A DNA stretch of 64,000 bases from Albidovulum sediminis (GTDB lineage Bacteria; Pseudomonadota; Alphaproteobacteria; Rhodobacterales; Rhodobacteraceae): contig NZ_JAOCQF010000004.1 of the NCBI RefSeq assembly GCF_025380365.1, positions 87,748 through 151,747 on the forward strand, written 5' to 3'. Numbering within the stretch: the stretch's first letter is position 1; each line of letters begins with the position of its first letter. Below the pieces are notes generated by a model. The model was not told the DNA's origin and did no database searches. It was given only the letters and a program-made list of their open reading frames with translations. The translations under genes and the position numbers were made by a program. Positions 16,438 to 59,942 of the stretch are shown here, piece by piece.

Positions 16438-16469
16438 CGGCGGCAGGGCCGCGGAGGAGAAAACACGAA

Positions 16470-43163: not shown

Positions 43164-43190
43164 TCAGGCTTCGGGGTTTCCGGGGCTATA

Positions 43191-44549: not shown

Positions 44550-45215
44550 TCAGGCCGCGGCCGTCGGTCCGTCCTGGGTGAAATGATCCGGGAAGAAGGC
44601 GGCGGCGCAGGCATAGACGGTCGTCAGCGCCTCGGCCCGGCTGTAGGGCGAATTCATCGTCATCATGTCGAGCCAGACGCCTTCGAGCGTCACCCGGAGA
44701 ACCCGCGCGGCAAGCGTGGGATTGTAGCGGTAGCGTCCCTCGGCGGCGAGGCGTTCGCAGATGTCGAGCATGGCGCGGAAATAGGCGTCGTCGTTCGATC
44801 CGCATTGTTCCTGGTAGAGCGGTCGGCACTGCGCCTCGCCCCAGTAGGCGCACCAGGCGGCAAGTCGGGCGGGGGTGCAGATCTCGGGGTTGAAGTCGGC
44901 CCGGATCAGCGCGTCGAGTTGCAGCGCGGGGGTGTCGGGCGCGGCGGCAAGGGCTGCGACCCAGTTGGCGCGGTATTCCTCGGACAGAAACATCAGCGTC
45001 TCGGTCAGCAGCCTTTCCTTCGTTTCGAAGTGGAAGTTGACAAGGCCGTGCGACAGGCCGGCGCGGTTGGCGACATCCGTCAGCGTCGTGCGGGCATAGC
45101 CACGTTCGGCGATGGTTTCGATCGTTGCCTCGATGAGTTGCTGGCGGCGCGCGGCCCGGCTCAGCTTGCGCGGCTGGGAGGGTTCGCCCTTAGACTTCAC
45201 GGCAGCTTCGCCCAT
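44550..45215 (-). CDS. TetR-family repressor, BetI-like
   Basis: A 221-residue TetR protein with HTH QLIEATIETIAERGYARTTL then VANRAGLSHGLVNFHFETKE, and a C-terminal ligand domain of BetI type (LAAWCAYWGEAQCRPLYQEQ). BetI proteins sense choline and control betaine genes. It diverges from the large island starting at 45427, with a well-formed operator between, so it is the likely repressor of that island. AAAGGA precedes the ATG at 45215. Confidence 0.88.
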   Translation of the reverse strand: MGEAAVKSKGEPSQPRKLSRAARRQQLIEATIETIAERGYARTTLTDVANRAGLSHGLVNFHFETKERLLTETLMFLSEEYRANWVAALAAAPDTPALQLDALIRADFNPEICTPARLAAWCAYWGEAQCRPLYQEQCGSNDDAYFRAMLDICERLAAEGRYRYNPTLAARVLRVTLEGVWLDMMTMNSPYSRAEALTTVYACAAAFFPDHFTQDGPTAAA

Positions 45216-45306
45216 CGGGAATCCTTTCGGCGGACCCGGCGCCCGCAGCGCAATAGATAAGGCCATTTCCGTCGCCCGCAACCGAAGATGGTCCATTTTG
45301 AAAGTT

Positions 45307-45338
45307 CAGTCAATATTCTGATTGACACCCCAGTCAAT
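45307..45338. promoter_or_regulatory. BetI-type operator: GTCAAT-N6-ATTGAC plus a third half-site
   Basis: A perfect inverted repeat GTCAAT/ATTGAC spans 45309-45326. CAGTCAAT occurs at 45307-45314 and again at 45331-45338. The three half-sites lie in the AT-rich core of the divergent promoter region between the BetI-like gene and the aminotransferase gene. Related TTGAC half-sites recur before the ABC transporter at 53527. Confidence 0.65.
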
Positions 45339-45426
45339 ACCAATCTAGCCTGCGATGACAGGGTGGAGAGTGCAGGGGCCAGGATCGGGCCTCGCTGCCG
45401 CTGTCCCTGAAGCAGGAGAGATGACC

Positions 45427-46779
45427 ATGTCCCGGATTGCGCAGCGCAATCTTTCCAAGTCCAACGCCCAGTTCCAGCGTGCGGTGAAGCGTCTGCCGTT
45501 GGGGGTGTCCTCGACCTTCCGCTATTGGGGGGACGACCGCACGATCTATGTTCATCACGGCAAGGGCGGGCGGACCTGGGATATCGACGGCAACTGTTAC
45601 GTCGACTATCGCCTTGGCTATGGTCCGGCGATCCTCGGCTATGCCGACGAGCGAGTGGACGCGGCCGCGCGCAAGGGGATGGAGGTTGGCGGCGTCTTCG
45701 CGCTTTCGACCGAGAAGGAACTGGCCGTGGCCGACCGGATCGCCAGCATGGTCCCCGCGGCCGAGCTTGTGCGCTTCTCGAACTCGGGTACCGAGGCGGT
45801 GATGGCGGCGCTACGGCTGGCGCGTGCCCATACCGGGCGCGAAAGTTACCTGCTGGTCGAGGGGGGGTATCACGGCCTTTTCGACGCCGCCATGTGGATG
45901 TCGAACATGGACGAATGGGACCTCGGCTCCAACACCGACCCGGAGCTTGTTCCCTATGGCAAGGGCATCCCGCAAACTGTCAAGAAGCTGGCCCATATCA
46001 CGCCGATGAACGATTTCCAGCGGCTCGAGGACATCTTCAGCAAGCATGGCGACAAGCTTGCTGCGATGCTGATCGAGCCGATCCAGGGGAACTGCTGTTC
46101 GATCATGGCGCAGCCCGAATATGTGAAGCTCGCCCGCGAGCTGTGCACGAAGTACGGCGTCATGCTGATAATCGACGAGGTGAAATCGGGCTTCCGCGTC
46201 GGCAAGGGCGGCATCCAGGGCATCATGGGGGTGACGCCCGACATCACCACCTTCGCGAAGGCGGTGGCGAACGGCTACCCAATCTCCGTCGTTGCCGGGC
46301 GCGAGGAGGTCATGCGCACCTTCCGCTATGGCGGCGCCTCGCATGGCGGCACTTACACGGCGCATTCCGTGTCGCTTGCAGCGGCGGAGGAAACGCTGCG
46401 CATCCTTGACGAAACGCCGGCGCTGGAGACGCTTGCGGCCTATGGAGAGCGGTTGAAGGCGGGGATCTCGAAGATCCTCGACGCGCGCAAGATCGTCCAT
46501 TCCTACACCGGCCACCCGTCGATGTTCGGCCTCTTCTTCGCCGAAACGCCCCCTGACAACTACCGCGACTGGAAGACGTCGGACTATTCGTTCTACGACC
46601 GGATGGCATATCATCTGCACGATCTCGGCGTCATCTGTGAGCCGGATTCGCGCGAGCCGTGGTTCATGTGCGAAGCGCATGGGCTGGACGAGACCTGCCT
46701 GAGCGATACGCTGAAGGCGGTGGAAACGGCGGTCGACCTGACGCTGGAACACTTCGAAGAGGACGCGAAGCGCGCATGA
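45427..46779 (+). CDS. Class III aminotransferase (glutamate-1-semialdehyde aminomutase-like)
   Basis: A 450-residue PLP enzyme of the omega-aminotransferase/GSA-aminomutase branch. Motifs: RFSNSGTEAVMAALRLARA, LIIDEVKSGFRVG with the PLP Asp, and TTFAKAVANGYPISVVAG with the Schiff-base Lys. The second of two ATGs (45427) has AGGAG at the right distance. A heme role is unlikely, as it leads a catabolic island under a BetI-like repressor; transamination of an amino-acid-like product is more plausible. It overlaps the next gene by ATGA. Confidence 0.85.
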   Translation: MSRIAQRNLSKSNAQFQRAVKRLPLGVSSTFRYWGDDRTIYVHHGKGGRTWDIDGNCYVDYRLGYGPAILGYADERVDAAARKGMEVGGVFALSTEKELAVADRIASMVPAAELVRFSNSGTEAVMAALRLARAHTGRESYLLVEGGYHGLFDAAMWMSNMDEWDLGSNTDPELVPYGKGIPQTVKKLAHITPMNDFQRLEDIFSKHGDKLAAMLIEPIQGNCCSIMAQPEYVKLARELCTKYGVMLIIDEVKSGFRVGKGGIQGIMGVTPDITTFAKAVANGYPISVVAGREEVMRTFRYGGASHGGTYTAHSVSLAAAEETLRILDETPALETLAAYGERLKAGISKILDARKIVHSYTGHPSMFGLFFAETPPDNYRDWKTSDYSFYDRMAYHLHDLGVICEPDSREPWFMCEAHGLDETCLSDTLKAVETAVDLTLEHFEEDAKRA

Positions 46780-48392
46780 TCTATGATGCGGTGATCGTCG
46801 GCGCGGGGCACAACGGCCTGGTCGCGGCCAGCTATCTGGCCAGGGCCGGCCTGAAGGTGGTCGTGGTCGAGAAGAACGACTGGATCGGCGGCGCCGCGGT
46901 CAGCCGCGAGCTTTATCCGGGCTTCACCTATTCCAACTGCTCCTACGTTTCATCGCTGTTCCGGCCCGAGATCATGCGCGACCTGGAACTGCCCCGGCAC
47001 GGGCTTCAGATCCTGCCCTACGAAGGGGGCGCGCTTTTTACCGAGGGCGGCGACTATCTGGGCATGTTCCGCAACCACGACGCCAACCGGCGCGAGATCG
47101 AGCGCCACAGCCCGCGCGATGCGGAAGCCTATGACCGCTACGCCCGTGACGTGCTGCGCCACTGCCGCTTCATCCGACCGATGCTGCTGCGCACCGCCGC
47201 CGACCCGGCCAGCTTCCGGCCACGCGACATCGCGGAACTGGCCTGGCTGGGCAAGCAGATGTTCGGCCTGTCGGAAATGGCGATGTACGACATGATCCGG
47301 TTCTGGACCATGTCGATCGCCGACTACCTCGACGAATACTTCGAAAATCCGGCGGTGAAAGCCTATCAGGCGGTCGCTTCGATCATCGGCACCGCGCTGG
47401 GCCCGATGTCGCCTGGCACGGCCTATGTCCTTCTGCACCACGCGATGGGCGACGTGGACGGCAACGTCGGCGCCTGGGGCTTTGCCCGCGGGGGGATGGG
47501 GTCGATCACCAAGGCGCTAGCGGCCTCGCTCAAGGCGGCGGGCGGAGAGATCCGCACCGGTTCCGGGGTCGAGCGCATCCTGGTCAGCAACGGCCGCGCG
47601 ACCGGGGTGGTGCTTGAGAACGGGGACGAGGTGTCGGGCCGACGCGTCGTGTCGAACATGGATGTGAAGCGGACGTTCCTCAAACATGTCGATGAGGACG
47701 AACTGCCTGCGTCCTTCGTCAAGCGCGTGAAGAACTTCAAGATCCGCGGTTCGTCCGGCAAGCTGAACATCGCGCTGGACCGGGCGCCCCGGTTCACGGC
47801 CTTGCCCGAAGGCGCGCCGAACATGAAGGGCGACCTGCACTTCACCGACTCGATCGAGAAGATGGAGCGCGCCTACGACGACTGGAAGGCGGGGCATTTC
47901 AGCCGCGATCCGTTCCAGGACATGATGATCCCGACCATGATCGACCCGACGATGGCCCCGCCGGGCAAGCATTTCATGTCCTGTTTCATCCAGTATGCGC
48001 CGCCGAAGATCGAGGGGCAGGACTGGACCGACGCCGACCGGGATGCCTTTGCCAAGGCCTGTCTCGACCAGATCGAGGCGCATGCGCCCGGCTTCAAGGA
48101 CAGCATCCTGCACGTGGAGGTGCGCACCCCGCGCGAGCTGGAGCGGGAAGTCGGGCTGACCGAAGGCAACATCTTCCAGGGCGAGCTGACCTTCGACCAG
48201 CTCCTCTTCAACCGGCCGGTGCCCGGCTATGCGCAATATCGCAGCCCGATCCGGGATCTGTGGATCTGCGGGTCGTCGACCCATCCCGGCGGCGGTGTCA
48301 TGGGCGCGCCGGGGCGCAATGCGGCGGCCGAGATCCTGCGCGACGTCAAGATGCCCAAGAAGGACATGAGCGATGCCTATGCCGTCCTTTGA
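46776..48392 (+). CDS. Phytoene-desaturase-like FAD oxidoreductase, first copy
   Basis: A 538-residue flavoprotein with YDAVIVGAGHNGLVAASYLARA at the N-terminus (split here as the FAD motif GAGHNG) and a C-terminal FAD-binding stretch with LWICGSSTHPGGGVMGAPG. It belongs to the NAD(P)/FAD amine-oxidase/CrtI-like superfamily that also includes many uncharacterised bacterial proteins. Carotenoid synthesis is not supported by the context. Oxidation of a C-N or C-C bond in the island's substrate is inferred. It overlaps both neighbours. Confidence 0.82.
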   Translation: MIYDAVIVGAGHNGLVAASYLARAGLKVVVVEKNDWIGGAAVSRELYPGFTYSNCSYVSSLFRPEIMRDLELPRHGLQILPYEGGALFTEGGDYLGMFRNHDANRREIERHSPRDAEAYDRYARDVLRHCRFIRPMLLRTAADPASFRPRDIAELAWLGKQMFGLSEMAMYDMIRFWTMSIADYLDEYFENPAVKAYQAVASIIGTALGPMSPGTAYVLLHHAMGDVDGNVGAWGFARGGMGSITKALAASLKAAGGEIRTGSGVERILVSNGRATGVVLENGDEVSGRRVVSNMDVKRTFLKHVDEDELPASFVKRVKNFKIRGSSGKLNIALDRAPRFTALPEGAPNMKGDLHFTDSIEKMERAYDDWKAGHFSRDPFQDMMIPTMIDPTMAPPGKHFMSCFIQYAPPKIEGQDWTDADRDAFAKACLDQIEAHAPGFKDSILHVEVRTPRELEREVGLTEGNIFQGELTFDQLLFNRPVPGYAQYRSPIRDLWICGSSTHPGGGVMGAPGRNAAAEILRDVKMPKKDMSDAYAVL

Positions 48393-49935
48393 TGCCATCG
48401 TGATCGGCGGCGGAACCAACGGGCTGGCCTGCGCCGCGCGGCTTCAGAAATCGGGCCGGAGGGTTCTGGTGCTGGAATCGGGCGCCGAGCCGGGGGGCGC
48501 CGCGCTTGGGCGCGAATTCGCGCCGGGATACCGGGCGCCGGGGCTTGCGCATCTGGTCACGACCATCGACGCGCGGGTGGAGCGGGAGATGGACCTGGGC
48601 CGTCACGGCCTGTCCTATGCCGGGCTGAGCCTGCCGTCTACGCTGGTTGCGCCCGACGGCGATCACCTCCTCCTCGAGGGCGAGGCGGGGGAGCGTGTCG
48701 CGGGCCTGTCCGAGGCCGAGCGCCTGGCCTGGTCGGAGCTGCGCGGACAGCTTATGCGGTTCGCCGGCGTCCTCGCGCCCTTCAAGGAAATGACGCCGCC
48801 ACGCATCGCCGCCGGGGCCGGCAACGAATACATGAAGCTCGGCAAGCTCGGGTTCGGCATCCGCAGGCTGGGAAAGGACGATTTCCGCGAGTTCCTGCGG
48901 ATGCTCCTGATCAATGTCTACGACGTCCTGAACGACGACCTCACCGACCCGCGGCTGAAGGGTATCCTTGCGCATGACGCGGTGCTTGGCACCTGGCTTG
49001 GCCCGCGGTCGCCGAATTCCCTCATCCATCTTCTCAATCGCCTCGCGGGTCAGGTCGCGGGGCGTCGTGCCGCGGTTGCCTTGCCAAAGGGCGGCATGGG
49101 CGCCGTGGCCTCCGCGATGGCGAAGGCGGCCGAGGCGCAGGGCGTGACGATCCGCACCGGCGCAAGGGTGGCCGCGATCCTGGTGGAAGACGACCGGGCC
49201 GTCGGTGTCACCCTTGCGGACGGAGAGGAGTTGCGGGCGAAGACCGTGGTTTCGGCGATCAATCCCAAGACCACGTTCCTGTCGCTTGTCGGCCCGCGTC
49301 ACCTCGACACCGGCTTCGTCAATCGCGTCCGCGCCATGAAGTCGCGCGGCGGCGCGGCCAAGCTGCACCTGGCCTTGAAGGGCGCCCCCGATTTCCGCGG
49401 CGCGGACCTGCGGACGCGGCTGGTGCTGGCACCGTCCGAAACGGCGGTCGAGCTTAGCTTCAACGCGGTGAAGTATGGCGAGGTTCCCGAGCGTCCGGTG
49501 ATGGAGGTGATCCTGCCCTCGGCGCATGAGGGCGGACATGCCCCGGACGGGCATCATATCCTGTCCGCCATCGTGCAGTTCGCGCCGCACGCACCCAAGG
49601 CCGGGCCGGACGTCGCGCGGCAGGAGATGCTGGCGCGCAGCCTGGCCGTCCTGGAGGACCACGCCCCCGGCCTGCGCGCCCTGGTCGAACACGCCGAATT
49701 GCTGATGCCCTACGACATCGAGGCGCGCTACGGCATGGTGGGGGGCAACTGGCACCATGGTGAGCTGAGTGTCGAGCAGATGCTGTTCCTGCGCCCCTTC
49801 GCGGGAACGTCACAATACGCGACCCCGCTCAGCGACCTGTGGCTGGCCGGGGCCGGTTGCCATCCCGGCGGCGGCATTTCCGGCGCTGCCGGGTGGAACG
49901 CCGCCGAACGCATCATCCGGGGGACGGGCCGATGA
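48373..49935 (+). CDS. Phytoene-desaturase-like FAD oxidoreductase, second copy
   Basis: A 520-residue paralogue of the gene before it: FDAIVIGGGTNGLACAARLQ at the N-terminus and LWLAGAGCHPGGGISGAAG at the C-terminus. The two copies are clearly related but diverged, overlap by 20 nt, and may form a heterodimer or act in sequence. It overlaps the GcvT-like gene by ATGA, so the whole front of the island is one translationally coupled unit. Confidence 0.82.
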   Translation: MPMPSFDAIVIGGGTNGLACAARLQKSGRRVLVLESGAEPGGAALGREFAPGYRAPGLAHLVTTIDARVEREMDLGRHGLSYAGLSLPSTLVAPDGDHLLLEGEAGERVAGLSEAERLAWSELRGQLMRFAGVLAPFKEMTPPRIAAGAGNEYMKLGKLGFGIRRLGKDDFREFLRMLLINVYDVLNDDLTDPRLKGILAHDAVLGTWLGPRSPNSLIHLLNRLAGQVAGRRAAVALPKGGMGAVASAMAKAAEAQGVTIRTGARVAAILVEDDRAVGVTLADGEELRAKTVVSAINPKTTFLSLVGPRHLDTGFVNRVRAMKSRGGAAKLHLALKGAPDFRGADLRTRLVLAPSETAVELSFNAVKYGEVPERPVMEVILPSAHEGGHAPDGHHILSAIVQFAPHAPKAGPDVARQEMLARSLAVLEDHAPGLRALVEHAELLMPYDIEARYGMVGGNWHHGELSVEQMLFLRPFAGTSQYATPLSDLWLAGAGCHPGGGISGAAGWNAAERIIRGTGR

Positions 49936-51146
49936 AAGCCGAAAAGCCGATGCAACCGGATCCGCGCCAGCACTACCTGACGCCGCTGCGCCAGACGACG
50001 TTTCACCCCCGCACCGCGGCGGCGAACCGGCTGAACAGCTGGGGCCCCTGGGGCGGCTACACCACGGTTCTCGAATACGACGACCTCGCGATGGAGCATT
50101 CGGCGATCCGCAATGCGGCGACGGTCTATGACCTCTGCCCGATGGTCAAGTACCGGGTCCGGGGGCCGGAGGCGGCCGCGTATCTGAACCGGCTGACGGT
50201 GCGCAACGCCGCAAAGCTGCCGGTCGGCGCGGTGCACTACACGATCTGGTGCGACGACGCGGGCCACATCATCGACGACGGCACCCTGTTCCGTCTGGGC
50301 GAAGCCGACTTCCGCATCTGCTGCCAGGAACGCCATCTGCCCTGGCTGCTCGACAGCGCCTTCGGCTTCGAGGTGAGCGTGGCCGAGGAGACGGAAGAGA
50401 TTGCTGCACTGTCCCTGCAAGGCCCCTGTTCCTTCGCGGTCCTGAAGGCCGCCGGGTTCGACGTGGCCGCGCTGAAGCCCTTCCGCATGGCGACCTTCGG
50501 TTTCGACGGTGGCGAACTGATGATCTCGCGCACGGGGTTTACCGGCGATCTCGGCTATGAACTCTGGATCGCGCCCGATCATGCGCTCGCGCTCTGGGAC
50601 TGCCTGTTCGAGGCGGGCGCGCCCTGGGGTCTGCGGCCCATCGGGACACAGGCGCTGGATCTCGCGCGGACGGAGGCGGGCTTCATCATCACCAACCTCG
50701 ACTTCGTCCCCGCCCATCAGGCGGTGCGGGAAGATCGCGTCCGTTCGCCGTTCGAGATGTCCCTCGACTGGATGATCGACTGGAACAAGGGGCACTTCAC
50801 CGGCCGTCGCGCGCTGCTGGCCGAGCGGGAACGCGGGTCGCGCTGGGCCTTCGTCGGGCTTGATATCGACGGCAACGTTTCGGCCGAACACGCGATCGTC
50901 TATCATGACCGCAAGCGGGAGGTTGGCCAGATCACCGCCGCGTGCTGGTCGCCGACGCTGAAGCGCAACATCGCGCTGGCGCATCTGGAGCGGCCCTACC
51001 ACGCCGGGAAGTCCGACAACCTCTGGGTCGAGGTCTACGCCATGCGCGAACTGCAATACGTCAAGCTCATGCTTCGGGCGAAGGTCTGCGACCGGCCGTT
51101 CTTCAATCCGGACCGTCGCAGGGCCACCCCGCCCGGCCCGTTCTGA
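49932..51146 (+). CDS. GcvT-family, THF-dependent aminomethyltransferase/demethylase
   Basis: A 404-residue stand-alone GcvT/YgfZ-fold protein. ISRTGFTGDLGYELWIAPD is the folate-domain signature, and LDLARTEAGFIITNLDF matches the region before the C-terminal barrel. Relatives include glycine cleavage T protein, DMSP demethylase (DmdA) and demethylase parts of SARDH/DMGDH. Expected role: transfer of a methyl or methylene group from the island's substrate to tetrahydrofolate. The rest of the glycine cleavage system is absent here, so T protein itself is unlikely. Confidence 0.83.
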   Translation: MKAEKPMQPDPRQHYLTPLRQTTFHPRTAAANRLNSWGPWGGYTTVLEYDDLAMEHSAIRNAATVYDLCPMVKYRVRGPEAAAYLNRLTVRNAAKLPVGAVHYTIWCDDAGHIIDDGTLFRLGEADFRICCQERHLPWLLDSAFGFEVSVAEETEEIAALSLQGPCSFAVLKAAGFDVAALKPFRMATFGFDGGELMISRTGFTGDLGYELWIAPDHALALWDCLFEAGAPWGLRPIGTQALDLARTEAGFIITNLDFVPAHQAVREDRVRSPFEMSLDWMIDWNKGHFTGRRALLAERERGSRWAFVGLDIDGNVSAEHAIVYHDRKREVGQITAACWSPTLKRNIALAHLERPYHAGKSDNLWVEVYAMRELQYVKLMLRAKVCDRPFFNPDRRRATPPGPF

Positions 51147-51158
51147 AGGAGCGAGAGA

Positions 51159-52310
51159 ATGTCCCTGCATCGCCATCCCGATTCCCCGCTGCTTGACCAC
51201 TGCCCCGAAACCCTGCCCGCCTGGGTCTACCGGGACGCCGGCTGGTACGAGAAGGAACGACAGGCGATCTGGAGCCGGGAATGGGTCTATGTCGGGCGGC
51301 GCAACGACCTGCCGCAGGGGACGATGCGCCGGATCGAGGCGGCGGGGCAAAGCCTGATCCTGTGCCACGACCGCGACGGGCGGGTGGCCTGCTTCCACAA
51401 CACCTGCCGACACCGGGGGGCGGAGTTGTGTTCCGCCCACGAACAGCCGCTCGGCAAGCTCATCACCTGCAAGTATCACAACTGGGCCTACGCGACCGAC
51501 GGGCGGCTTGTCTCCACCGCCTTCGGGACCCCGACAGAGGACTTCCGGCGCGAGGATCACGGGCTGTTCGCGGTGCATGTCCGGGATTGGAACGGCTTTC
51601 TCTACGTCTGCCTTGCCCATGATGCGCCCGAGTTCGCGCCGGACATGGGGGTGCGCTCGCTCGACAACTGGCCGATGGCCGCACTGGTCACCGGGCACCG
51701 GATGGAAAAGCGCCTGAAGTGCAACTGGAAGATCTTCTGGGAGAATTACAACGAATGCCTGCACTGTCCGGGCGTTCATCCCGAACTGTGCGACATGGTG
51801 CCGATCTACCGGCAGGGCATCATGGCCACGAACGAGGCCGCCGGCTGGGCGCCCGACATGCCGCGGCCGGCGTCGAACCTGAAGGACGGCGCCGTCACCT
51901 GGACCGCATCCGGCCAGCCCTGCGGCCCGGTCTTCCCGCACCTGACCGCAGAGGAACGCGCGAACGGCTACAACTTCGTCACGATCTACCCCACGATGTT
52001 CATCGTGGCCCATGTCGATCATGTCCGCGCCGTACGGCTTGAGCCGATTGGGCCGGAGGAAACCCTGTTGACCGCGGAATGGTTCTTTCCGCCAGAGACG
52101 ATGGCCCAGCCGGGGTTCGACCCGGCCGAGGTCGCGGCCTTTGCGACCATCGTGATGGCGCAGGATGCCGAGGTGGCCGAGATGAACCAGCGTGGGCTCC
52201 ACTCCGACCGATATGAAAGGGGACGGCTCATGCCGCAGGAATTCGACATCCACAGGTTCCACCAGTGGCTTCGCACGCGGATGGAGGCGGCGGGCGAGGT
52301 GATCGCATGA
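51159..52310 (+). CDS. Rieske non-heme iron oxygenase, alpha-type, first copy
   Basis: A 383-residue oxygenase with a Rieske [2Fe-2S] domain (CRHRG then CKYHNW, about 85-110) and a catalytic domain with the mononuclear iron motif WENYNECLHCPGVHPEL. This form resembles glycine betaine monooxygenase (GbcA), stachydrine and carnitine oxygenases, which break N-methyl or C-N bonds with O2. The reductase partner is not encoded next to it. It starts 12 nt after the GcvT-like gene and overlaps the second oxygenase by ATGA. Confidence 0.9.
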   Translation: MSLHRHPDSPLLDHCPETLPAWVYRDAGWYEKERQAIWSREWVYVGRRNDLPQGTMRRIEAAGQSLILCHDRDGRVACFHNTCRHRGAELCSAHEQPLGKLITCKYHNWAYATDGRLVSTAFGTPTEDFRREDHGLFAVHVRDWNGFLYVCLAHDAPEFAPDMGVRSLDNWPMAALVTGHRMEKRLKCNWKIFWENYNECLHCPGVHPELCDMVPIYRQGIMATNEAAGWAPDMPRPASNLKDGAVTWTASGQPCGPVFPHLTAEERANGYNFVTIYPTMFIVAHVDHVRAVRLEPIGPEETLLTAEWFFPPETMAQPGFDPAEVAAFATIVMAQDAEVAEMNQRGLHSDRYERGRLMPQEFDIHRFHQWLRTRMEAAGEVIA

Positions 52311-53515
52311 ACAGGCCGCTGGTCACCAAGCCCCGCCCCGTGCCCGAAGACTGGGACCGCCGCGGACTGCCCGGCTGGACCTATCATTCGAAGGCCCTGT
52401 TCGAGCTGGAAAAGCGCGAGGTCTTCCAGACCCACTGGCAGATCGCGGGCCACGTCAGCGACATCCCGGCACCCGGCGATTATCTGACCATGGACATCGC
52501 CGACGAACGCGCGCTGGTGATCCGCGGTGCGGATGGCGTTGTCCGCGGCTTCCACAACCTCTGCCGCCACCGCGGCGCCCGCGTCGCGGCCGAGGAAAAG
52601 GGGCATTGCAAGGGCGCGATGGTCTGCCCGTTCCACGGTTGGGTCTACAACCTCGACGGAACCCTGCGCGGGGCCGCCCGCCCCGGAAGCTTCGGCGACA
52701 TGGACCGGGCCGACTTCGGCCTGAAGCCGCTGGACCTGGATATCTGGCACGGCTTCATGTTCGTGCGTTTCCGCCCCGGGCCGCAGCCCGCCGTCCGGGA
52801 CCTACTGGCGCCGTTCGAGCGCGATTTCACCGACTGGCGCGCGGCCGATGTCCTGCCGTCGGGGACGATCGTGACCAGCGAGATCGACGTGAACTGGAAG
52901 TCGGTGCGCGATGTCGACAACGAGGGCTACCACGTTGCCATGGCCCATCCCGCGCTGCAGGACCTTTACGGTCGCACCTATCGCGACCTGGCCTTTGCCA
53001 ATGGCAATTCCGCATCCTATGCGACCTTCGGGGACACGCCGGGCCGGCTCTGGTCGGTGCGGAACTACGTCAAGTTCGCGCCCGCGCCGGACTGGCTGCC
53101 CGCCGACAAGCGCAAGGTCTGGGCCTATGTCGGCATGTTCCCGACCGGGGTCTTCATCTTCACCCCGGAAACCGTGCAGTTCTATCAGGATTTCCCGCTG
53201 TCGCCGGGCCGGACCCTGCAACGCGGCGCGATCTATCGCCGCCCCGACGAGACGCGGCAGGAACGGCTGAGCCGCTACCTTGCCTACCGGATCGACCGCG
53301 AGACCGGCAAGGAGGACGTCCAGCTGTCAATCTGGTCGAACGAGTCGATGAAGTCGTCGGCCTTCGAGGGCTTCCACCTGTCGGACCTGGAATTCGCGGT
53401 GAAGAACCATCACGACCAGTTGCGCCGCATCCTGCCGGTCATGCGCATTCAGGATGCGCCGGCTGAGGATCGCGTTTGCGAGACAAACGAGAGGATACGA
53501 AGCGCCACGCCCTGA
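52307..53515 (+). CDS. Rieske non-heme iron oxygenase, alpha-type, second copy
   Basis: A 402-residue oxygenase with Rieske ligands in LCRHRGARV and VCPFHGWVY (about 80-107) and a mononuclear iron site in VRDVDNEGYHVAMAHPAL. It is only distantly related to its neighbour, so the pair probably catalyses two different oxidations or forms a mixed complex. Last gene before the transporter; 89 nt later potF-like begins, with a repeated operator-like motif between. Confidence 0.88.
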   Translation: MNRPLVTKPRPVPEDWDRRGLPGWTYHSKALFELEKREVFQTHWQIAGHVSDIPAPGDYLTMDIADERALVIRGADGVVRGFHNLCRHRGARVAAEEKGHCKGAMVCPFHGWVYNLDGTLRGAARPGSFGDMDRADFGLKPLDLDIWHGFMFVRFRPGPQPAVRDLLAPFERDFTDWRAADVLPSGTIVTSEIDVNWKSVRDVDNEGYHVAMAHPALQDLYGRTYRDLAFANGNSASYATFGDTPGRLWSVRNYVKFAPAPDWLPADKRKVWAYVGMFPTGVFIFTPETVQFYQDFPLSPGRTLQRGAIYRRPDETRQERLSRYLAYRIDRETGKEDVQLSIWSNESMKSSAFEGFHLSDLEFAVKNHHDQLRRILPVMRIQDAPAEDRVCETNERIRSATP

Positions 53516-53526
53516 ATATGATCAAA

Positions 53527-53552
53527 AATCGGTTGACCAGAATCGGTTGACC
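53527..53552. promoter_or_regulatory. Tandem AATCGGTTGACC repeats before the ABC transporter
   Basis: AATCGGTTGACC occurs at 53527-53538 and 53541-53552, 14 nt apart. GGTTGACC is itself nearly palindromic and shares the TTGAC core with the BetI-type half-sites at 45309-45338. It lies in the 89-nt gap before the substrate-binding protein gene and suggests a second promoter under the same regulator. Confidence 0.55.
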
Positions 53553-53604
53553 CCCCTCAAATGCCAATCAACGATAATTCCTGAAACCAGCAGAGGAGAG
53601 ACCC

Positions 53605-54705
53605 ATGAAACTCAGCAGACGGACGACGCTGACTGCACTTGGCGGTGCCCTCGCGATGCCCTACGTCCGGCCTTCCTGGGCGCAGGCCGGAACGGTGAAC
53701 GTCTACAACTGGGCCGATTACATCGGTGAAACCACGCTGGCGGATTTCGAGGCCCAGACGGGCATCGGAGTCGTCTACGACACCTATTCCTCGGCGGAGG
53801 AAGCGCAGGCGAAGATGCTGGCGGGGTCGACGGGATACGATGTGGTGGACCACGCGGGCGTCGACATGCCCCGCGCCATCACCGCTGGCATCTACGAAAA
53901 GCTCGACAAGTCGCTGCTGCCGAACTGGAAGAACCTCGATACCGAGGTGCTCCGCATCCTTGCGGGGTGGGATCCCGGCAACGAATACGGCATGCCTTAC
54001 ATATGGGGATCGGTCGGCTTCACCTACAACGTCGACATGGTGCTGGAACGCATCCCCGACGCCGACATGACCTCGATGGACCTGATCTTCAAACCGGAGA
54101 ACGCGGAGAAGCTGGCGGATTGCGGCATCTCGATCCTCGACAGCCCGACCGACATCATGCTGATGGTGCTGAAATACCTTGGCCTTGACGGCGACACGAC
54201 CAACGTCGCCGACTACGACAAGGTCGTGGAGGCGTTCAAGCCGATCCGCCAGTACATCCGCACCTTCGACAACACCAACTACCTCAACGCGATCCCGAAC
54301 GGCGAACTTTGCGCGATCAACAACTGGTCGGGCGACTACGCGACCGCCGCAGGCCGGGCGGCCGAGGCGGGGATCGAGATGAACCTGGCCTACTTCGTGC
54401 CGAAGACCGGCGCCCCGGCCTGGGTCGACTGCATGGCGATCCCCTCGGATGCGCCGAACCGCGAGAACGGTTACAAGTTCATGAACTTCCTGATGGAGCC
54501 GCAGGTCGCGGCGGGCGACACCAACTACACCTACTACGCCACCGCCAACGTTCCGGCGAAGGAGTTCATCCTGCCCGAGATCCTCGAGGATCCCGCGGTC
54601 TACCCGGACGCCGAAACCATCGGCCGCATGTGGGCGCCCAAGCCCTTCAACGAGGAACAGGACCGGGCAATGACCCGCGCCTGGCAGGCGATCAAGACTG
54701 GTTGA
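53605..54705 (+). CDS. ABC transporter substrate-binding protein, PotD/PotF family
   Basis: A 366-residue periplasmic binding protein with a signal sequence that starts KLSRRTTLTAL (twin-arginine-like) and ends near PSWAQA. The mature part begins TVNVYNWADYIGETTLADFE, characteristic of polyamine-binding PotD/PotF. Not all members bind polyamines; compounds with cationic nitrogen are common. In an island with two Rieske oxygenases and a BetI-like repressor the ligand may be a quaternary amine zwitterion. AGGAG precedes the ATG. Confidence 0.88.
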   Translation: MKLSRRTTLTALGGALAMPYVRPSWAQAGTVNVYNWADYIGETTLADFEAQTGIGVVYDTYSSAEEAQAKMLAGSTGYDVVDHAGVDMPRAITAGIYEKLDKSLLPNWKNLDTEVLRILAGWDPGNEYGMPYIWGSVGFTYNVDMVLERIPDADMTSMDLIFKPENAEKLADCGISILDSPTDIMLMVLKYLGLDGDTTNVADYDKVVEAFKPIRQYIRTFDNTNYLNAIPNGELCAINNWSGDYATAAGRAAEAGIEMNLAYFVPKTGAPAWVDCMAIPSDAPNRENGYKFMNFLMEPQVAAGDTNYTYYATANVPAKEFILPEILEDPAVYPDAETIGRMWAPKPFNEEQDRAMTRAWQAIKTG

Positions 54706-54734
54706 CGGGAAGGCCCCGGGGGTAAACCGCTGAA

Positions 54735-55874
54735 ATGCAGGTCACGACATCAATCGCAGCATCTGCGGTGGCGCCTGAAGTGGCGCCGCCGTTCATCCGC
54801 ATCGAGGGCGTGACCAAGCGCTTCGGCACCTTCACGGCGGTATCCTCCGTCACACTCGATATCCGGAAGGGCGAGATCTTCGCCCTTCTCGGCGGCTCCG
54901 GCTGTGGCAAGACCACGCTTCTCAGGATGCTTGCCGGGTTCGAGACCCCGACCGAGGGGCGCATCTTCATCGACGGGCAGGACATGACCGGCGTTCCGGC
55001 CTATGAACGCCCCGTCCACATGATGTTCCAGAGCTACGCGCTGTTTCCGCACATGACGGTGGAAAAGAACATCGGCTACGGGCTGAAGCACGAGCGGATG
55101 ACCGAAGCGCAGCGAAAAGACCGTGTGCGCGAAATGCTGGAGCTGGTGCAGCTGACCGAGTTCGCGCACCGCAAGCCGCACCAGATCTCGGGCGGGCAGC
55201 GGCAGCGGGTCGCGCTGGCACGCGCGCTGGCGCGGCAGCCGAAGCTCCTGCTGCTCGACGAACCGCTGGCCGCGCTCGACAAGAAGCTGCGCGAACATAC
55301 GCAGTTCGAACTCATGGACATCCAGCACAAGACCGGCACCACCTTCATCGTCGTCACCCACGACCAGGAAGAGGCTATGATCCTCTCGAACCGCATCGCG
55401 GTGATGGACAAGGGCGAGGTGAAGCAGGTGGGCAGCCCCACCGAGATCTACGAATTCCCCAACAGCCGTTTTGTCGCCGGCTTCATCGGCTCCATCACCT
55501 TCTTCGAAGGCAAGGTGGCCTCGGTTGCGGGCGATCAGGCGGTGGTGGACGTGCCCGACCTCGGCGGGCAGGTGACGGCGCGGGCGGTGCCCGGAACCGC
55601 GCCCGGCCAGGTGCTTACTCTCGCGCTCAGGCCCGAGAAGATCGCGATCTCGCGCGCCCGGCCGGAGGGCCCCAATGCCTTCGAGGGCACGGTGGATGAC
55701 CTCGGCTACTTCGGCAAGGACTCGCTCTACAAGGTGAAGCTTGCCTCGGGCAAGGTTCTGTCGGTGCTGTCGGTCAACGCGCGGCGTGCGGACGAAAGGC
55801 AACGCGTCGCGGCGTGGGAAGACCGGGTCTGGCTCTCGTTCGAGCCGGGCGCCGCAATCCTTCTGACGAGCTGA
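54735..55874 (+). CDS. ABC transporter ATP-binding protein, PotA/PotG family
   Basis: A 379-residue ATPase. Walker A is LLGGSGCGKTTLL, the signature ISGGQRQRVALARAL, Walker B LLLLDEPLAALD, with a C-terminal TOBE domain (about 285-375) typical of PotA. It powers the importer encoded around it. It lies 29 nt after the binding-protein gene and 9 nt before the first permease. Confidence 0.92.
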   Translation: MQVTTSIAASAVAPEVAPPFIRIEGVTKRFGTFTAVSSVTLDIRKGEIFALLGGSGCGKTTLLRMLAGFETPTEGRIFIDGQDMTGVPAYERPVHMMFQSYALFPHMTVEKNIGYGLKHERMTEAQRKDRVREMLELVQLTEFAHRKPHQISGGQRQRVALARALARQPKLLLLDEPLAALDKKLREHTQFELMDIQHKTGTTFIVVTHDQEEAMILSNRIAVMDKGEVKQVGSPTEIYEFPNSRFVAGFIGSITFFEGKVASVAGDQAVVDVPDLGGQVTARAVPGTAPGQVLTLALRPEKIAISRARPEGPNAFEGTVDDLGYFGKDSLYKVKLASGKVLSVLSVNARRADERQRVAAWEDRVWLSFEPGAAILLTS

Positions 55875-55883
55875 GGCAGGCCG

Positions 55884-56855
55884 ATGACCGAAAGCCCCGA
55901 CATCGCGGCCCGACATGCCAGCGCGCGCCCCTCCAAGGGCGGATTCCTGCGCTGGTTCAACCGGCGCGGTTGGGCGGACATCACGATCGCCACGCCCTAC
56001 GTCTGGCTTCTTGTTTTCTTCCTGGTGCCCTTCATCATCGTGATCGCGATGAGTGTGGCGACGCGCACGCCGACTTCGCCCCCGTTCGGGTTTGGCGGAG
56101 ATCATCCGCTGATCAACACGGCGACCTACGAGCGGCTATTTTCCGACAGCCTTTACATCCGCGCTTTCCTGACCTCGATCCGGAACGCGGCCTTCGCGAC
56201 CGTTCTTTGCCTGCTGATCGGCTATCCGATGGCGCTGGGTCTGACGCGCGTGTCGAAGTCCTGGCGCAACATCCTGCTGATGCTGGTTATCCTGCCCTTC
56301 TGGACCTCGTTCCTGCTGCGGGTCTATGCTTGGATGGGACTGATGGGCAACAACAGCTGGTTCAACAAGCTGCTGACCTCGGCCTACAACATTATGGCGC
56401 CCGAGGAATGGGCGGTCCGCTCCATCCAGATGATGAACACGAACTTCGCGGTGGTTCTGGTCACGGTCTATTCCTACCTGCCGTTCATGATCCTGCCGCT
56501 TTACGCCAACCTCGAAAAGCTTGACCTGACGCTGAACGAGGCGGCCGAGGATCTGGGCTCGCGGCCGTTCCGGGTGTTCCTCGACGTGACCTTGCCGCTT
56601 TCGGTGCCGGGGATCATCGCCGGCGGGCTTCTGGTGTTCATCCCGGCGTCGGGCGAACTGATCATTCCGGGCCTTGTTGGCAACCCGTCGCAACCCATGA
56701 TCGGCCGGGTGATCCAGGACGAATTCGCCTCGGCCCGCGACTGGCCCATGGCCTCTGCCGTGGCGGTCGCGCTTCTGCTGCTTCTGGTCGTGCCGATGAT
56801 GCTCTATTCGCACTTCGAGGCGAAGGCGCACGAGAAGAGGGCGATGGAGCCATGA
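55884..56855 (+). CDS. ABC transporter permease, PotB/PotH family
   Basis: A 323-residue inner-membrane permease with six or so hydrophobic segments (for example WLLVFFLVPFIIVIAMSV and ILLMLVILPFWTSFLL) and the EAA loop LNEAAEDLGSRPFRVFLDV that contacts the ATPase. It overlaps the second permease gene by ATGA. Confidence 0.9.
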   Translation: MTESPDIAARHASARPSKGGFLRWFNRRGWADITIATPYVWLLVFFLVPFIIVIAMSVATRTPTSPPFGFGGDHPLINTATYERLFSDSLYIRAFLTSIRNAAFATVLCLLIGYPMALGLTRVSKSWRNILLMLVILPFWTSFLLRVYAWMGLMGNNSWFNKLLTSAYNIMAPEEWAVRSIQMMNTNFAVVLVTVYSYLPFMILPLYANLEKLDLTLNEAAEDLGSRPFRVFLDVTLPLSVPGIIAGGLLVFIPASGELIIPGLVGNPSQPMIGRVIQDEFASARDWPMASAVAVALLLLLVVPMMLYSHFEAKAHEKRAMEP

Positions 56856-57691
56856 AACGCAAGTCGCGCTTCCTGGTAACGATGCTGTGCTTCGGCTTCG
56901 CGTTCTTCTACGTGCCGATCCTTTCGATGATGGTCTTTTCGTTCAACAACGCGCGGCTTGCGACGGTGTGGGGTGGATTTTCGACGAAATGGTACGCGAA
57001 GCTCTTCGAGAACGATCAGGTGATCAACGCCGCCATCCTGTCGGTCAAGATCGCGCTCCTGTCCGCGACCTTCGCCACCATCCTCGGCACGATGGCGGGG
57101 CTTGCGCTGGCGCGGTTCAAGTCCTTCCGGGGCCGGACGCTGTTTTCCGGCCTTGTCACCGCGCCGCTGATCATGCCCGAGGTCATCACCGGCATCTCGT
57201 CGCTGATCTTCTTCATCATGCTGGCCGAATGGGTGGGCTGGCCCGCCCAGCGGGGCTTTGCCACGGTGACGCTGGCGCATATCACATTCTCCATGGTCTT
57301 CGTGACAACCATCGTCCATTCCCGCCTGAGCGAGGCCGACGTGTCTGTCGAGGAGGCGGCGATGGACCTCGGCTCCCGTCCCTGGCAGGTGATGAAGGAC
57401 GTCACGCTGCCGATCATCTCGCCCGCGATCCTGTCGGGCTGGCTCCTGGCCTTCACCATCTCGCTGGACGACGTGGTCATCACCTCGTTCACCACGGGGC
57501 CCGGCAATACCACGCTGCCGCTGCTGATCTGGTCGAAGGTCAAGCTGGGCGTCACGCCGGACGTGAACGCGCTGGCGACGATCACGGTCTGCGTCGTCGG
57601 CATCGGCGTCATCATTGCGGGCATCATCATGAATGCCGCGGAACGCCGGCGGGAGCGTGACGCTCAACTGGCCTATCAAGCGAATCTTTGA
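56852..57691 (+). CDS. ABC transporter permease, PotC/PotI family
   Basis: A 279-residue permease with several transmembrane segments (MLCFGFAFFYVPILSMMVFS first) and an EAA loop VEEAAMDLGSRPWQVMKDV. With the previous gene it forms the channel of the importer. It ends 2 nt before the cupin gene, so the latter is in the same operon. Confidence 0.9.
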   Translation: MKRKSRFLVTMLCFGFAFFYVPILSMMVFSFNNARLATVWGGFSTKWYAKLFENDQVINAAILSVKIALLSATFATILGTMAGLALARFKSFRGRTLFSGLVTAPLIMPEVITGISSLIFFIMLAEWVGWPAQRGFATVTLAHITFSMVFVTTIVHSRLSEADVSVEEAAMDLGSRPWQVMKDVTLPIISPAILSGWLLAFTISLDDVVITSFTTGPGNTTLPLLIWSKVKLGVTPDVNALATITVCVVGIGVIIAGIIMNAAERRRERDAQLAYQANL

Positions 57692-57693
57692 AC

Positions 57694-58587
57694 ATGGCAC
57701 CTGAACAAGACACCTATCTGGCAGAGCTGCATACGCCGATCGGGGCGGAAGGGTCGGGACGCCGCCGCTATGCGGCTGCGATGGCACTGCATCGCGCCGG
57801 CCGCCTGCCGGACGCGGCGCTCGAGGTCTATCGCATCTGCTCTCCGCGCGACCATGAGGATCCCTCCGCTTTGCTGGAGCGTCGGGGCCTTCTGTCCCAG
57901 GTTCCCGCCCCGGTCGCGCCCGGCCCGCGACTGGCGGCAAGCCGCCTTCTGGACGAGGCCGACCGCTATCTCGGGGGTCTCGATGGCCCCGGCGTCGCAG
58001 AGGTGCGCGCGGGCCTGTCGCGATGGCGCGGGGAGGGGCCAGAGCCGGTGGCGGCGGCATCCAACCCGGTCGTGGATCGCTGGCTGGCGCCCGCGCTGGA
58101 GCGGGCGGCCGAAACCCGGCCGGCGCTTGCGCAGGCGATCGGGCAGGCGGCACCGCACCTGAAGTGGATCACCTACGACGCCTATCCCCCCGACGCGATC
58201 GGCGCGGCCTTCCGCACGGGGCATGCCTTTGCCTCGCTCGTCGGAGGGGCGGGGGCGCCCTATCTGTCGCGCGACTTCGATTTCGGAGTGTTCCTGATCG
58301 CGCCGCGGGTCCTTTACCGCGACCATCGCCACGCCGCGCCGGAACTTTACGCGCCGCTGACGGGGCCGCACGGATGGCGTTTCGGCACCGGCGCGCCGCT
58401 TGCCTTGCTGCCCGCGCATGTGCCGGTCTGGAACGAACCGTTCCGCCCGCACCTGACCAAGGTCGGGGCTGTGCCATTCCTCTGCCTTTTCGGTTGGACG
58501 CGGGACGTCGACGAACCCGCGGAGGTTCTGGCCGCCGAGGATTGGGAAGCGCTTGAGGCCCTGCCTCTGGAAGCGGTCGAAGTCTAG
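57694..58587 (+). CDS. DMSP-lyase-family cupin protein
   Basis: A 297-residue protein whose C-terminal half is a cupin of the dimethylsulfoniopropionate lyase type. Y208-x2-H211-x-H213-x3-E217-x-Y219 (LYRDHRHAAPELY) reproduces the metal-binding pattern of that superfamily, followed by PLTGPHGWRFG and a later His in PFRPHLT. The N-terminal 150 residues are helical and longer than in DddQ. Sitting after a cationic-compound importer, it may cleave DMSP or a related zwitterion such as an N- or S-methylated analogue. True DMSP lyase activity is not established by sequence. Confidence 0.75.
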   Translation: MAPEQDTYLAELHTPIGAEGSGRRRYAAAMALHRAGRLPDAALEVYRICSPRDHEDPSALLERRGLLSQVPAPVAPGPRLAASRLLDEADRYLGGLDGPGVAEVRAGLSRWRGEGPEPVAAASNPVVDRWLAPALERAAETRPALAQAIGQAAPHLKWITYDAYPPDAIGAAFRTGHAFASLVGGAGAPYLSRDFDFGVFLIAPRVLYRDHRHAAPELYAPLTGPHGWRFGTGAPLALLPAHVPVWNEPFRPHLTKVGAVPFLCLFGWTRDVDEPAEVLAAEDWEALEALPLEAVEV

Positions 58588-58610
58588 ACGGCTCAACGAA
58601 GGAGGGACTG

Positions 58611-59396
58611 ATGGAAGCCGAAGGCGGAGAACTGTATCACCAGAGGCTGATCGACATGCTCGAGGCGATCTGGGGGCAGGGTTTCCTCTCGCCCGGTGGC
58701 CCGGAGGAAGTCGCCCGGCTGGTCGAAGGCTCCGACTTCGCCGGCAAGACGGTTCTGGACATCGGCTGCGGCGCGGGCGGGATCGACATTGCGCTCGTCC
58801 GCAACCATGGCGCCGGCTATGTCTGCGGTGTCGACGTGGAAGACACGGTTCTCGATCATGCCCGAAGGCTGGTTCATGCGGCGGGCTTCGATGATCGCAT
58901 CGGATGCCTCAAGGTTGTCCCGGGACCGCTGCCGTTTCCCCCCGAGACATTCGACATCGTGTTTTCCAAGGACTCGATCGTTCACATCGCCGACAAGCAC
59001 GCCCTGATGGCCGAGGTTTTCCGCGTGCTCAAGCGCGGCGGCTGGTTCGTCGCCTCGGACTGGCTGATCGGGCATGACGGGGATCCATCGTCGGAGATGG
59101 CGGCCTACATAAAGTCCGAGGGTCTGGATTTCGGGATGGCCTCGCCCGCGCGCTATCGCGACGCGATGGAGCGGGCGGGGTTCACGAACGTTCAGGTCAC
59201 AAGCCGCAACGCCTGGTACCGTGAAGTCGCGAAACAGGAACTCGCTCGCCTTCAGGGCCCGGTGGGAGAGGCTGCGGCCAAGGTCGTCGGCCGCGCGTTC
59301 GTCGACGACAATATCGGGATCTGGACGCGCATGGTGCCGGTTCTGGACAGCGGGGAACACTGCCCCACGCATCTGAAGGCGCAGAAACCGGCCTGA
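58611..59396 (+). CDS. SAM-dependent methyltransferase, phosphoethanolamine N-methyltransferase-like
   Basis: A 261-residue class I methyltransferase. VLDIGCGAGGIDIALV is the SAM motif; the GQGFLSPGG segment ahead of it and IVFSKDSIVHIADKHALM after it match plant/nematode phosphoethanolamine N-methyltransferases. AAGGAGGGA precedes the ATG. A methylating enzyme beside several demethylating ones is unexpected; it may make a betaine-like compound, detoxify a product, or act on a different substrate. Confidence 0.8.
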   Translation: MEAEGGELYHQRLIDMLEAIWGQGFLSPGGPEEVARLVEGSDFAGKTVLDIGCGAGGIDIALVRNHGAGYVCGVDVEDTVLDHARRLVHAAGFDDRIGCLKVVPGPLPFPPETFDIVFSKDSIVHIADKHALMAEVFRVLKRGGWFVASDWLIGHDGDPSSEMAAYIKSEGLDFGMASPARYRDAMERAGFTNVQVTSRNAWYREVAKQELARLQGPVGEAAAKVVGRAFVDDNIGIWTRMVPVLDSGEHCPTHLKAQKPA

Positions 59397-59426: not shown

Positions 59427-59942
59427 TCAGGCGGCGCTGGCGGTGCCCAGCGACAGCCAGTCCAGCACCGAGGCCGGATCGGCCGGAAGTTCGGTCGCCG
59501 CGCCTTCGGTGAACTCATGGAAGGCGCCGGCGTTCTCCGGGTTCAGGCCAAGCACGACCGGCAGCCCCCTGACCAGGGCCTCGGCGATCACGTCGCGAAA
59601 GCCGCGGCCCTCGGCCTCCTGCTTGCCGAACTTGTTGATCAGCAGGACGTCGGCGCCATCAGCTGCCAGCCGTCGCGCGACTTCGGCAACCGCCAGCTCC
59701 AACGCGCCCGCGTCCAGCCTGCAGCCGTCGGCGGCGTTTCCGAGATCCTGGGTGATGGACGTCGCCTCTCCGTCCGGCAGCAGGGCCAGCCGCATGTCGC
59801 AGTCGGTCCTGCCCGGACGCTCGACGTTGCGCTGAACGACGCCGACAAGGCGCAGCCCCCGTGCCTGCAGAAGCCGGGCAACCTCTGCAACGACGGCGTC
59901 GTTCCTGCCACGCTCGAGGCTGCTCACATAGGCAAGACGCAT
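59427..59942 (-). CDS. DUF2478-like P-loop-type NTPase-family protein
   Basis: A 171-residue protein starting RLAYVSSLERGRNDAVVAEV and containing GVVQRNVERPGRTDCDMRLA and LLINKFGKQEAEGRGFRDVI, which I recognise as DUF2478-like (related to THEP1-type nucleoside triphosphatases and often near molybdenum genes). The usual GKT/S Walker loop is replaced by LERGRND, so nucleotide binding is uncertain. AAAGGA precedes the ATG. No molybdenum gene is nearby. Function unknown. Confidence 0.72.
   Translation of the reverse strand: MRLAYVSSLERGRNDAVVAEVARLLQARGLRLVGVVQRNVERPGRTDCDMRLALLPDGEATSITQDLGNAADGCRLDAGALELAVAEVARRLAADGADVLLINKFGKQEAEGRGFRDVIAEALVRGLPVVLGLNPENAGAFHEFTEGAATELPADPASVLDWLSLGTASAA

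Follow-up and report, generated by a model that had tools for sequence, protein, structure and literature searches.

Which compound would a bacterium take up and dismantle with a polyamine-type importer, two Rieske oxygenases, two carotenoid-desaturase-like flavoproteins, a GcvT-like protein, an aminotransferase, a cupin of the dimethylsulfoniopropionate (DMSP) lyase family and a methyltransferase, all set behind one divergent regulator? The question is raised by positions 44550–59396 of a 64,000-nucleotide stretch of Albidovulum sediminis DNA; we call the whole stretch the window, and it sits in contig C15 of a 4.29-Mb genome (G000). Profile annotation identified 13 genes in this island, a divergent BetI-like regulator and 12 close-packed genes (Table 1), and recovered every gene that an earlier note on the window had named, each where that note had placed it. 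The note read the island as an uptake and demethylation system for a methylated zwitterion. Judged by its gene anatomy, the island is likely to be a co-regulated unit for taking up a methylated cation and oxidatively removing its N-methyl groups, and to that extent the earlier reading holds; a simple zwitterion is doubtful, given that the binding protein has kept the amine-binding carboxylates of PotF. We tentatively propose, at a little less than even confidence, that the island imports a polyamine-like di-cation carrying N-methyl groups and likely takes these off, after which the carbon chain and nitrogen would be available for use. Below, AT3 denotes the class III aminotransferase, CrtI1 and CrtI2 the flavoproteins, RO1 and RO2 the oxygenases and MT the methyltransferase.

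The island is common to several Rhodobacterales genera. CrtI1 was found at E ≤ 1e-100 in 49 of 394 genomes of the family and at E ≤ 1e-150 in 19 of 385 genomes sampled from the class, the window genome being counted in both. From outside the window genome we fetched regions around 36 of the 38 family places with at least 61% identity and around 17 of the 19 class places; of the 12 places below 45%, 4 were included. Five plasmid loci and four named loci were added, giving 66 loci (L numbers), or 64 distinct loci after removal of the duplicates L040 (the contig of L010) and L048 (the contig of L013). The named loci (Defluviimonas sp. WL0002, two Frigidibacter and Rhodobacter sp. Har01) were found by scanning genomes with the cupin sequence, and each carries CrtI1 to MT in the window order. 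Counts are derived from tblastn matches and coordinates because the first gene-calling pass miscalls some genes; a rough gene map of 35 loci was used for neighbour names only. Besides the window, 13 distinct genomes keep order and strand from CrtI1 to the cupin (L009, L010, L011, L012, L013, L041, L043, L045, L046, L049, L050, L051 and L052; L009, L011 and L012 start inside CrtI1, and the small helical domain of L050 was detected by profile search). All 13 parts, from regulator through MT, occur in six of them (L010, as L040, L013, L045, L050, L051 and L052). This shared order is more than chance, and the conservation in other Rhodobacterales that the earlier note had singled out as a check is there, in the same order and on the same strand.

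CrtI1, CrtI2 and GcvT form the core of the island, being adjacent and on one strand in 54 of the 64 distinct loci, rhizobia among them. Four of the ten remaining loci have a CrtI1 similarity of only 37–41% and no GcvT nearby; in another three (L026, L072 and L073) GcvT lies at the expected distance and the CrtI2 search match landed on CrtI1; L061 and L075 are short contigs, and L076 has GcvT on the opposite strand. Together with TetR regulators, class III aminotransferases, Rieske oxygenases and Pot-type importers, the trio is also found in Shinella, Rhizobium, Ensifer and Parasedimentitalea. Window-type loci combine an AT3 of the GSA-aminomutase/GntE subfamily with a PotF that is 58–96% identical. 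Sister-type loci, which include the rhizobia and Parasedimentitalea and make up most of the remaining core loci fetched with an importer, have a different class III aminotransferase (PRK07036, 692 and 651 bits against a cut-off of 618 in the two members scanned), and their PotF is only 21–27% identical, compared with 61–71% for CrtI1. Neighbours of some sister-type loci include OYE-type flavoproteins, an AmaA-like oxidase and PhyH (one or two each scanned). A mixed locus, L059, has a sister-type PotF together with window-type RO1, RO2, cupin and MT, and an MTTB-family amine methyltransferase gene immediately after GcvT (10317–11894). At L068, L069 and L073 the trio (at L073 by position only) lies beside glnE and sigma-factor genes, and importer, Rieske oxygenase and aminotransferase are all absent from the 20 kb; because of these loci, the trio may also be used outside such islands.

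A polyamine-like ligand is favoured because of the importer pocket. In passages of a structural account of PotF (PMC8666671), S38, D39 and D247 line the proximal site, W37, W244 and F276 form an aromatic box, and S85, S87, A182, E185, D278 and L348 are distal; D39 and D247 contact the primary amine, E185 and D278 act at the distal end, and D39–R254 and R91–E184 are salt bridges. With positions mapped by hand from the PDB alignment, W37, D39, W244, D247, R254, D278, W276 and D185 are present in the window protein and in all 18 distinct full-length window-type relatives, so that D39, D247, D278, an acid at 185 and the aromatic box are all retained. One of the 18, the PotF of L060, is 52% identical and comes from outside the family; the L042 protein is cut N-terminally and keeps the remaining positions. 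The distal residues of the window protein are Ala85, Val87, Asp185 and Pro348, and among the 18 relatives Ala85 occurs in 13, a hydrophobic residue at 87 in 14 and Pro348 in 17, with E184 replaced, mostly by Thr. The protein scores 332 bits against NF007962, below the 636-bit cut-off for PotF itself. A separate PotF in the same genome has a more typical pocket (S38, D39, Thr85, Gly87, Glu185, D247, D278 and Thr348). The sister group has lost three carboxylates, with G39, C85, S/T247 and C278 in 21 of 21 loci and the same aromatic residues, and the PotF of L062 is of a third kind. From these pocket residues we infer that the window importer would grip its ligand by a primary amine at one end, the ammonium group at the other end being bulkier and less prone to hydrogen bonding.

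Both oxygenases, the only PF00848 matches in the genome at E ≤ 0.001, resemble enzymes that act on quaternary ammonium compounds. The best PDB relatives of RO1 are 3n0q, 3vca, 4qup and CntA (3n0q and 3vca being nearest overall), and those of RO2 are CntA (the nearest), 4qup and 3vca; we take 3vca to be Stc2. In the numbering of CntA, Glu205 is described as the electron bridge and Tyr203 as binding the cation, Tyr203 being diagnostic of group Va whereas group Vb has Asn there (passages of PMC7948474), and a Cys206/Cys209 pair is described for some group V members (in part of PMC10952381). These numbers were transferred through PDB alignments, for RO1 through 3vca, the residue 203 of which is the Asn of Vb. 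RO1 has Tyr or Phe203 (Tyr in the window), Glu205 and both cysteines in the window and in 22 of 22 readable distinct orthologs at 44% identity or more (L054 is cut). RO2 has Asp203 and Glu205 and lacks the cysteine pair in the window and in all 23 distinct orthologs with 53% identity or higher; it was undetected in L047, L057 and L058. By similarity and residues, both would belong to group V, and RO1, by the signature of its aromatic residue only, to group Va. RO2 fits neither Va nor Vb at position 203, which is Asp rather than Tyr, Phe or Asn. Against the GbcA profile (NF058607, cut-off 670), the two reach only 176 and 142 bits.

CrtI1, the best-conserved member of the core, has only distant relatives in the PDB (phytoene dehydrogenase, 62 bits). 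Positions conserved at 95% or more number 109 in CrtI1 (62 sequences) and 39 in CrtI2 (59 sequences; the duplicates L040 and L048 are counted in both), which makes CrtI1 the likelier catalytic chain on conservation. The nearest relative of GcvT is the T domain of trimethylamine N-oxide (TMAO) demethylase, with 255 bits to the T part of NF053776 and 180 bits to PDB entries 9q59/9q5a, as against 113 bits to the DMSP demethylase profile. The match is to the T part alone; the whole-protein profile, with its DUF1989 part and a cut-off of 1100, is not reached.

These features can be arranged into a route. The ligand would enter through the PotFGHI-type importer, whose carboxylate-lined proximal site would take the primary amine and whose aromatic, less polar distal part would accommodate the methylated ammonium group. 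RO1, through the aromatic cation-binding residue of carnitine- and choline-type Rieske oxygenases, would open the quaternary ammonium group, and RO2, through Asp203, would act on the protonated tertiary amine or the next methyl group. CrtI1, CrtI2 and GcvT would together make up a three-part flavin N-demethylase, GcvT handing the one-carbon product to tetrahydrofolate, and AT3 would convert the primary amine to an aldehyde. The BetI-like regulator would occupy a box ahead of AT3 until substrate or product releases it. No step in this scheme falls to the small helical domain, the optional cupin or MT. The resemblance of both oxygenases to quaternary-ammonium enzymes, with Asp203 in RO2, and the kept PotF carboxylates beside a mostly less polar distal end are the reasons why a polyamine-like N-methylated di-cation fits better than a simple zwitterion. 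The more specific proposal, an N-methylated-polyamine route in which a CrtI-like pair and a free-standing GcvT form the demethylase and a Rieske subgroup grips its substrate by Asp instead of an aromatic residue, is somewhat doubtful.

The regulator has the domains of a BetI-type TetR protein, as its earlier label implied, but is not BetI itself: it scores 96 bits against TIGR03384 (cut-off 201.3), and the true BetI of the genome lies elsewhere (G000:C11:1968124, 226.7 bits). Orthologs in window-type loci are 53–73% identical and align only from about residue 42, so the true start may be near 45215. In relatives, a palindromic box, ATTGACN4CAGTCA, recurs in the interval that separates the regulator from AT3. 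The exact box is single-copy in the window genome (Table 1), and each of the 18 relatives searched carries it at the cluster, 110–1570 bases ahead of the CrtI1 match. These relatives are those with CrtI1 at 72% or more, minus G348; because the box had been derived from regions of 17 of them, only the eighteenth relative (G382) and the rarity of the box elsewhere add new information. In ten of the 18 the exact box occurs nowhere else, and eight have one or two more copies; with a reversed-pattern control, 15 genomes had no match and three had one forward and one reverse match. Five one-mismatch boxes occur in the window genome, one of which (G000:C11:1967931) precedes the true betI by about 180 bases, as would fit a BetI-type box. 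The box is a likely operator of the regulator, and the regulator probably a local repressor, with repression and release as expected from its family. A promoter scan found no sigma-70 promoter at the box region, and a regulon search for the reductase and aldehyde dehydrogenase steps found the exact box in the window genome at the cluster only. Two relatives also carry fully symmetric boxes, ATTGACTGNNCAGTCAAT (G175:C1:2393821 and G068:C124:43818), which possibly belong to another TetR regulator.

The cupin protein has two parts. The whole-protein structure model has a mean predicted local distance difference test (pLDDT) score of 94.6, and Foldseek places the C-terminal part closest to 4b29 and 5cu1 (DddQ). 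H215, E219, Y221 and H255 are invariant in 35 sequences, and the PF16867 domain and metal ligands of cupin DMSP lyases are both present. The first ~70 residues match an 81–83-residue protein encoded directly after GcvT in Shinella, Rhizobium and Ensifer, and this small domain also stands alone in L042 (G121) and, between PotI and MT, in L056 (G018). Because five loci keep the small domain without the cupin domain (in a search confined to the loci themselves), the cupin domain appears to be optional, and C–S or C–N cleavage by a 'DMSP lyase' is not supported as a core step. The small domain occurs in 20 of 21 uncut distinct loci with RO2 at 53% or more (it is missing from L016) and in none of 41 others, some of them cut short; the link to RO2 is one of co-occurrence only. 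The Shinella protein has 425 homologues in the size range searched. Its model is all-helical (pLDDT 92.1), comparison of the fold with the PDB gave nothing better than E 3.6, and two stand-alone small proteins had no Pfam match above cut-off. At L049, PotI, the small domain and the cupin lie in one stop-free frame (15851–17584), possibly a permease fusion or a sequence error.

Several observations weigh against the proposed route. The nearest PDB relatives of AT3 are GSA aminomutases (256 bits) rather than known diamine transaminases, with PuuE at 129 bits; AT3 is undetected in L042, L056, L057 and L058, L042 having a 26% identical one on the opposite strand. RO1 is absent from L053, L055 (which appears damaged, with split genes and no Rieske motif in its RO2), L057 and the three rhizobial loci, which means that not all loci share a fixed order of two oxygenases. 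The importer is undetected in L047, L057 and L058, which keep the core and offer at least 12.9 kb after CrtI1. The distal end of the pocket is not uniformly apolar, with Gln, Arg or Ser at 87 in 4 of the 18 relatives and Ser, Thr or Asp at 85 in 5. No Rieske reductase is found among the island genes, and the intergenic regions of the rhizobial loci L014 and L015 have a different sequence in which the box is not present. At the Asp of the Asn-Asp of the Bacillus subtilis T protein, GcvT has Asn in the window, and 62 sequences have Asp in 32, Asn in 19 and other residues in 11; in TMAO demethylase, passages of PMC12560246 describe tetrahydrofolate as not needed and its use as probably vestigial. 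For both reasons tetrahydrofolate use by GcvT is doubtful; a flavin N-demethylase coupled to it would accord with gene neighbourhood and GcvT similarity. MT, whose closest PDB relatives are the phosphoethanolamine N-methyltransferases 5wp4/5wp5 (114 and 108 bits), is PEAMT-like by similarity, and an S-adenosylmethionine (SAM)-dependent methyltransferase is hard to place inside a demethylation island; MT was not seen in the 2–3 kb fetched past the cupin at L041, L043, L046 and L049.

Other substrates would use the same genes differently. A zwitterionic omega-trimethylammonium carboxylate (gamma-butyrobetaine, 5-aminovalerate betaine or beta-alanine betaine) might be demethylated three times to give an omega-amino acid for AT3, a type of substrate that a terminal class III aminotransferase would suit. 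RO2 is nearest to CntA, which is described as taking carnitine and gamma-butyrobetaine (in part of PMC7948474), beta-alanine betaine is DMSP-shaped and would suit the cupin, and the sister-group PotF lacks the three carboxylates. Those carboxylates are nevertheless kept in all 18 window-type relatives, and the cupin domain appears dispensable; we regard this substrate as unlikely. An unmethylated polyamine or guanidino-amine, with Rieske and flavin enzymes that hydroxylate or oxidise it otherwise than by N-demethylation, would account for a PotFGHI-type importer with polyamine carboxylates and for an AT3 whose nearest named family is GntE (435 bits against a cut-off of 525). L060 and L074 have genes nearby that resemble those for glutamine synthetase or glutamylputrescine synthetase, and L060 has a PuuC-like gene as well, each scoring below its cut-off; the PuuA-like (glutamine-synthetase-like) gene forms a 5-locus cluster (two members scanned, L060 and L074), is absent from nine mapped window-type loci and lends weak support. 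We consider this quite improbable, since GcvT is nearest to TMAO demethylase, both oxygenases lie near quaternary-ammonium enzymes (RO1 with the aromatic residue) and the genome holds a separate PotF with a more typical pocket.

Two further readings seem to us very unlikely. That the unit makes or interconverts a methylated amine, with MT as the source and the oxidases tailoring its product, draws on a PEAMT-like MT in 29 of the 66 fetched loci (duplicates counted) and sits poorly with an importer of the ATP-binding cassette type within the unit and several demethylase-type genes. Import of a DMSP-like sulfonium compound, which the cupin would cleave while GcvT served as a DmdA-like demethylase, is if anything more improbable still: the DddQ-like fold and its metal ligands are kept, but the cupin domain is absent from the five loci that keep the small domain, and GcvT sides with TMAO demethylase over DMSP demethylase. 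Of the substrates suggested in the earlier note, proline betaine, homarine, trigonelline and sulfonium compounds, none is singled out by these observations. The N-methylated, polyamine-like di-cation is therefore the substrate that we prefer, with the tentativeness already stated.

Table 1 Features of the island, in window positions
Feature	Positions	Strand	Profiles and remarks
BetI-type TetR regulator	44550–45296	-	PF00440 and PF13977
Palindromic box ATTGACN4CAGTCA	45321–45336	+	putative operator
AT3, class III aminotransferase, GSA-aminomutase/GntE-like subfamily	45421–46779	+	PF00202
CrtI1, CrtI/CrtO-like flavin adenine dinucleotide (FAD) protein	46776–48392	+	PF01593
CrtI2, second CrtI-like FAD protein	48373–49935	+	PF01593
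GcvT-like protein	49932–51146	+	PF01571 and PF08669; start ATG
RO1, Rieske oxygenase, quaternary-ammonium type	51159–52310	+	PF00355 and PF00848
RO2, Rieske oxygenase	52307–53515	+	PF00355 and PF00848
PotF-like binding protein	53605–54705	+	NF007962, PDB PotF family
PotG-like ATPase	54735–55874	+	PF00005 and PF08402
PotH-like permease	55884–56855	+	PF00528
PotI-like permease	56852–57691	+	PF00528
Small helical domain, residues ~1–70 of the cupin protein	57688–57903	+	
DMSP-lyase-superfamily cupin domain	57940–58587	+	PF16867 (DMSP_lyase)
MT, SAM-dependent methyltransferase, PEAMT-like	58611–59396	+	PF08241

Along the island, genes overlap or lie 30 bases or less apart, with 4-base overlaps at five adjacent pairs and, as the exception, an 89-base gap ahead of PotF. 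The cupin gene starts at 57688 (TTG) or 57694 (ATG), and an opposite-strand DUF2478 gene (59427–59942) comes after MT. An aldehyde dehydrogenase and a saccharopine-reductase-like gene adjoin the other end (41664–44424). For none of these three flanking genes did the 66 fetched loci contain an ortholog-level match, and aldehyde dehydrogenase matches there are 25–32% only; most window-type stretches extend ~3–4 kb past the regulator, and L009–L012 stop short of it. Trimethyllysine, a substrate that the aldehyde dehydrogenase and saccharopine-reductase-like neighbours had suggested, was dropped for this reason. Three more GcvT-domain genes lie upstream in the window (9610–10407, 13587–14399 and 29556–30359) and, judged by open-frame length (816–862 residues), are fusions of the dimethylglycine/sarcosine-dehydrogenase type; GCV_T matches across the genome number 26. 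The cupin is followed, at seven distinct loci of the window type (L011, L013, L041, L045, L050, L051 and L055), by a protein of ~540 residues of the Amidohydro_3 family; formamide hydrolases belong to this family and would suit an N-formyl intermediate. A MatB (malonyl-CoA synthase) gene near L059 and L062, in L062 not adjacent to the core, is a possible pointer to beta-alanine.

If the proposed route is correct, carotenoid-desaturase-like flavoproteins would gain a role in amine demethylation, and methylated polyamines could be named as a substrate class usable by alphaproteobacteria of sediment, soil and sea. Such polyamines occur, for example, in diatom silica. The route would also suggest a setting for the small-protein family, and a 'DMSP lyase family' annotation in islands of this kind may be a poor marker of DMSP breakdown.

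Among the matches listed in a search of the open-access literature, which leaves subscription papers and preprints outside, we found no description of this gene set, and each known system resembles only part of it. The cupin DMSP lyases DddQ and DddL (PF16867) share the fold and aligned metal ligands; the island cupin, unlike them, is fused to a small helical domain found alone elsewhere, its cupin part appears optional, and no acrylate-handling gene is among the 13. MtgB and MTTB methyltransferases also demethylate quaternary amines (as described in parts of PMC12478193 and PMC8604678), and the mixed locus has an MTTB, but theirs is a cobalamin-dependent methyl transfer (PMC8604678, in part) and the gene is absent from the window island. 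The importer is of the PotFGHI putrescine family, with four genes, proximal carboxylates and an aromatic box, and departs from it in overall score and in all four distal residues given above. TMAO demethylase (Tdm) and the dimethylglycine dehydrogenase (DMGDH)/sarcosine oxidase family likewise join a GcvT-type subunit, or one-carbon-binding part, to an amine-oxidising part; Tdm, however, has DUF1989 metal domains in one chain (according to passages of PMC12560246), whereas the island has two separate CrtI-like flavoproteins. Also related are the GbcA, Stc2 and CntA systems for glycine betaine, stachydrine and carnitine, which share the Rieske branch and the bridging Glu, with RO1 keeping the aromatic residue of CntA and the Cys pair. 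The island differs from them in the low GbcA-profile scores of its oxygenases, in the Asp203 and missing Cys pair of RO2, and in its likely next demethylase, in which CrtI1, CrtI2 and GcvT are separate proteins instead of a DMGDH-type fusion.

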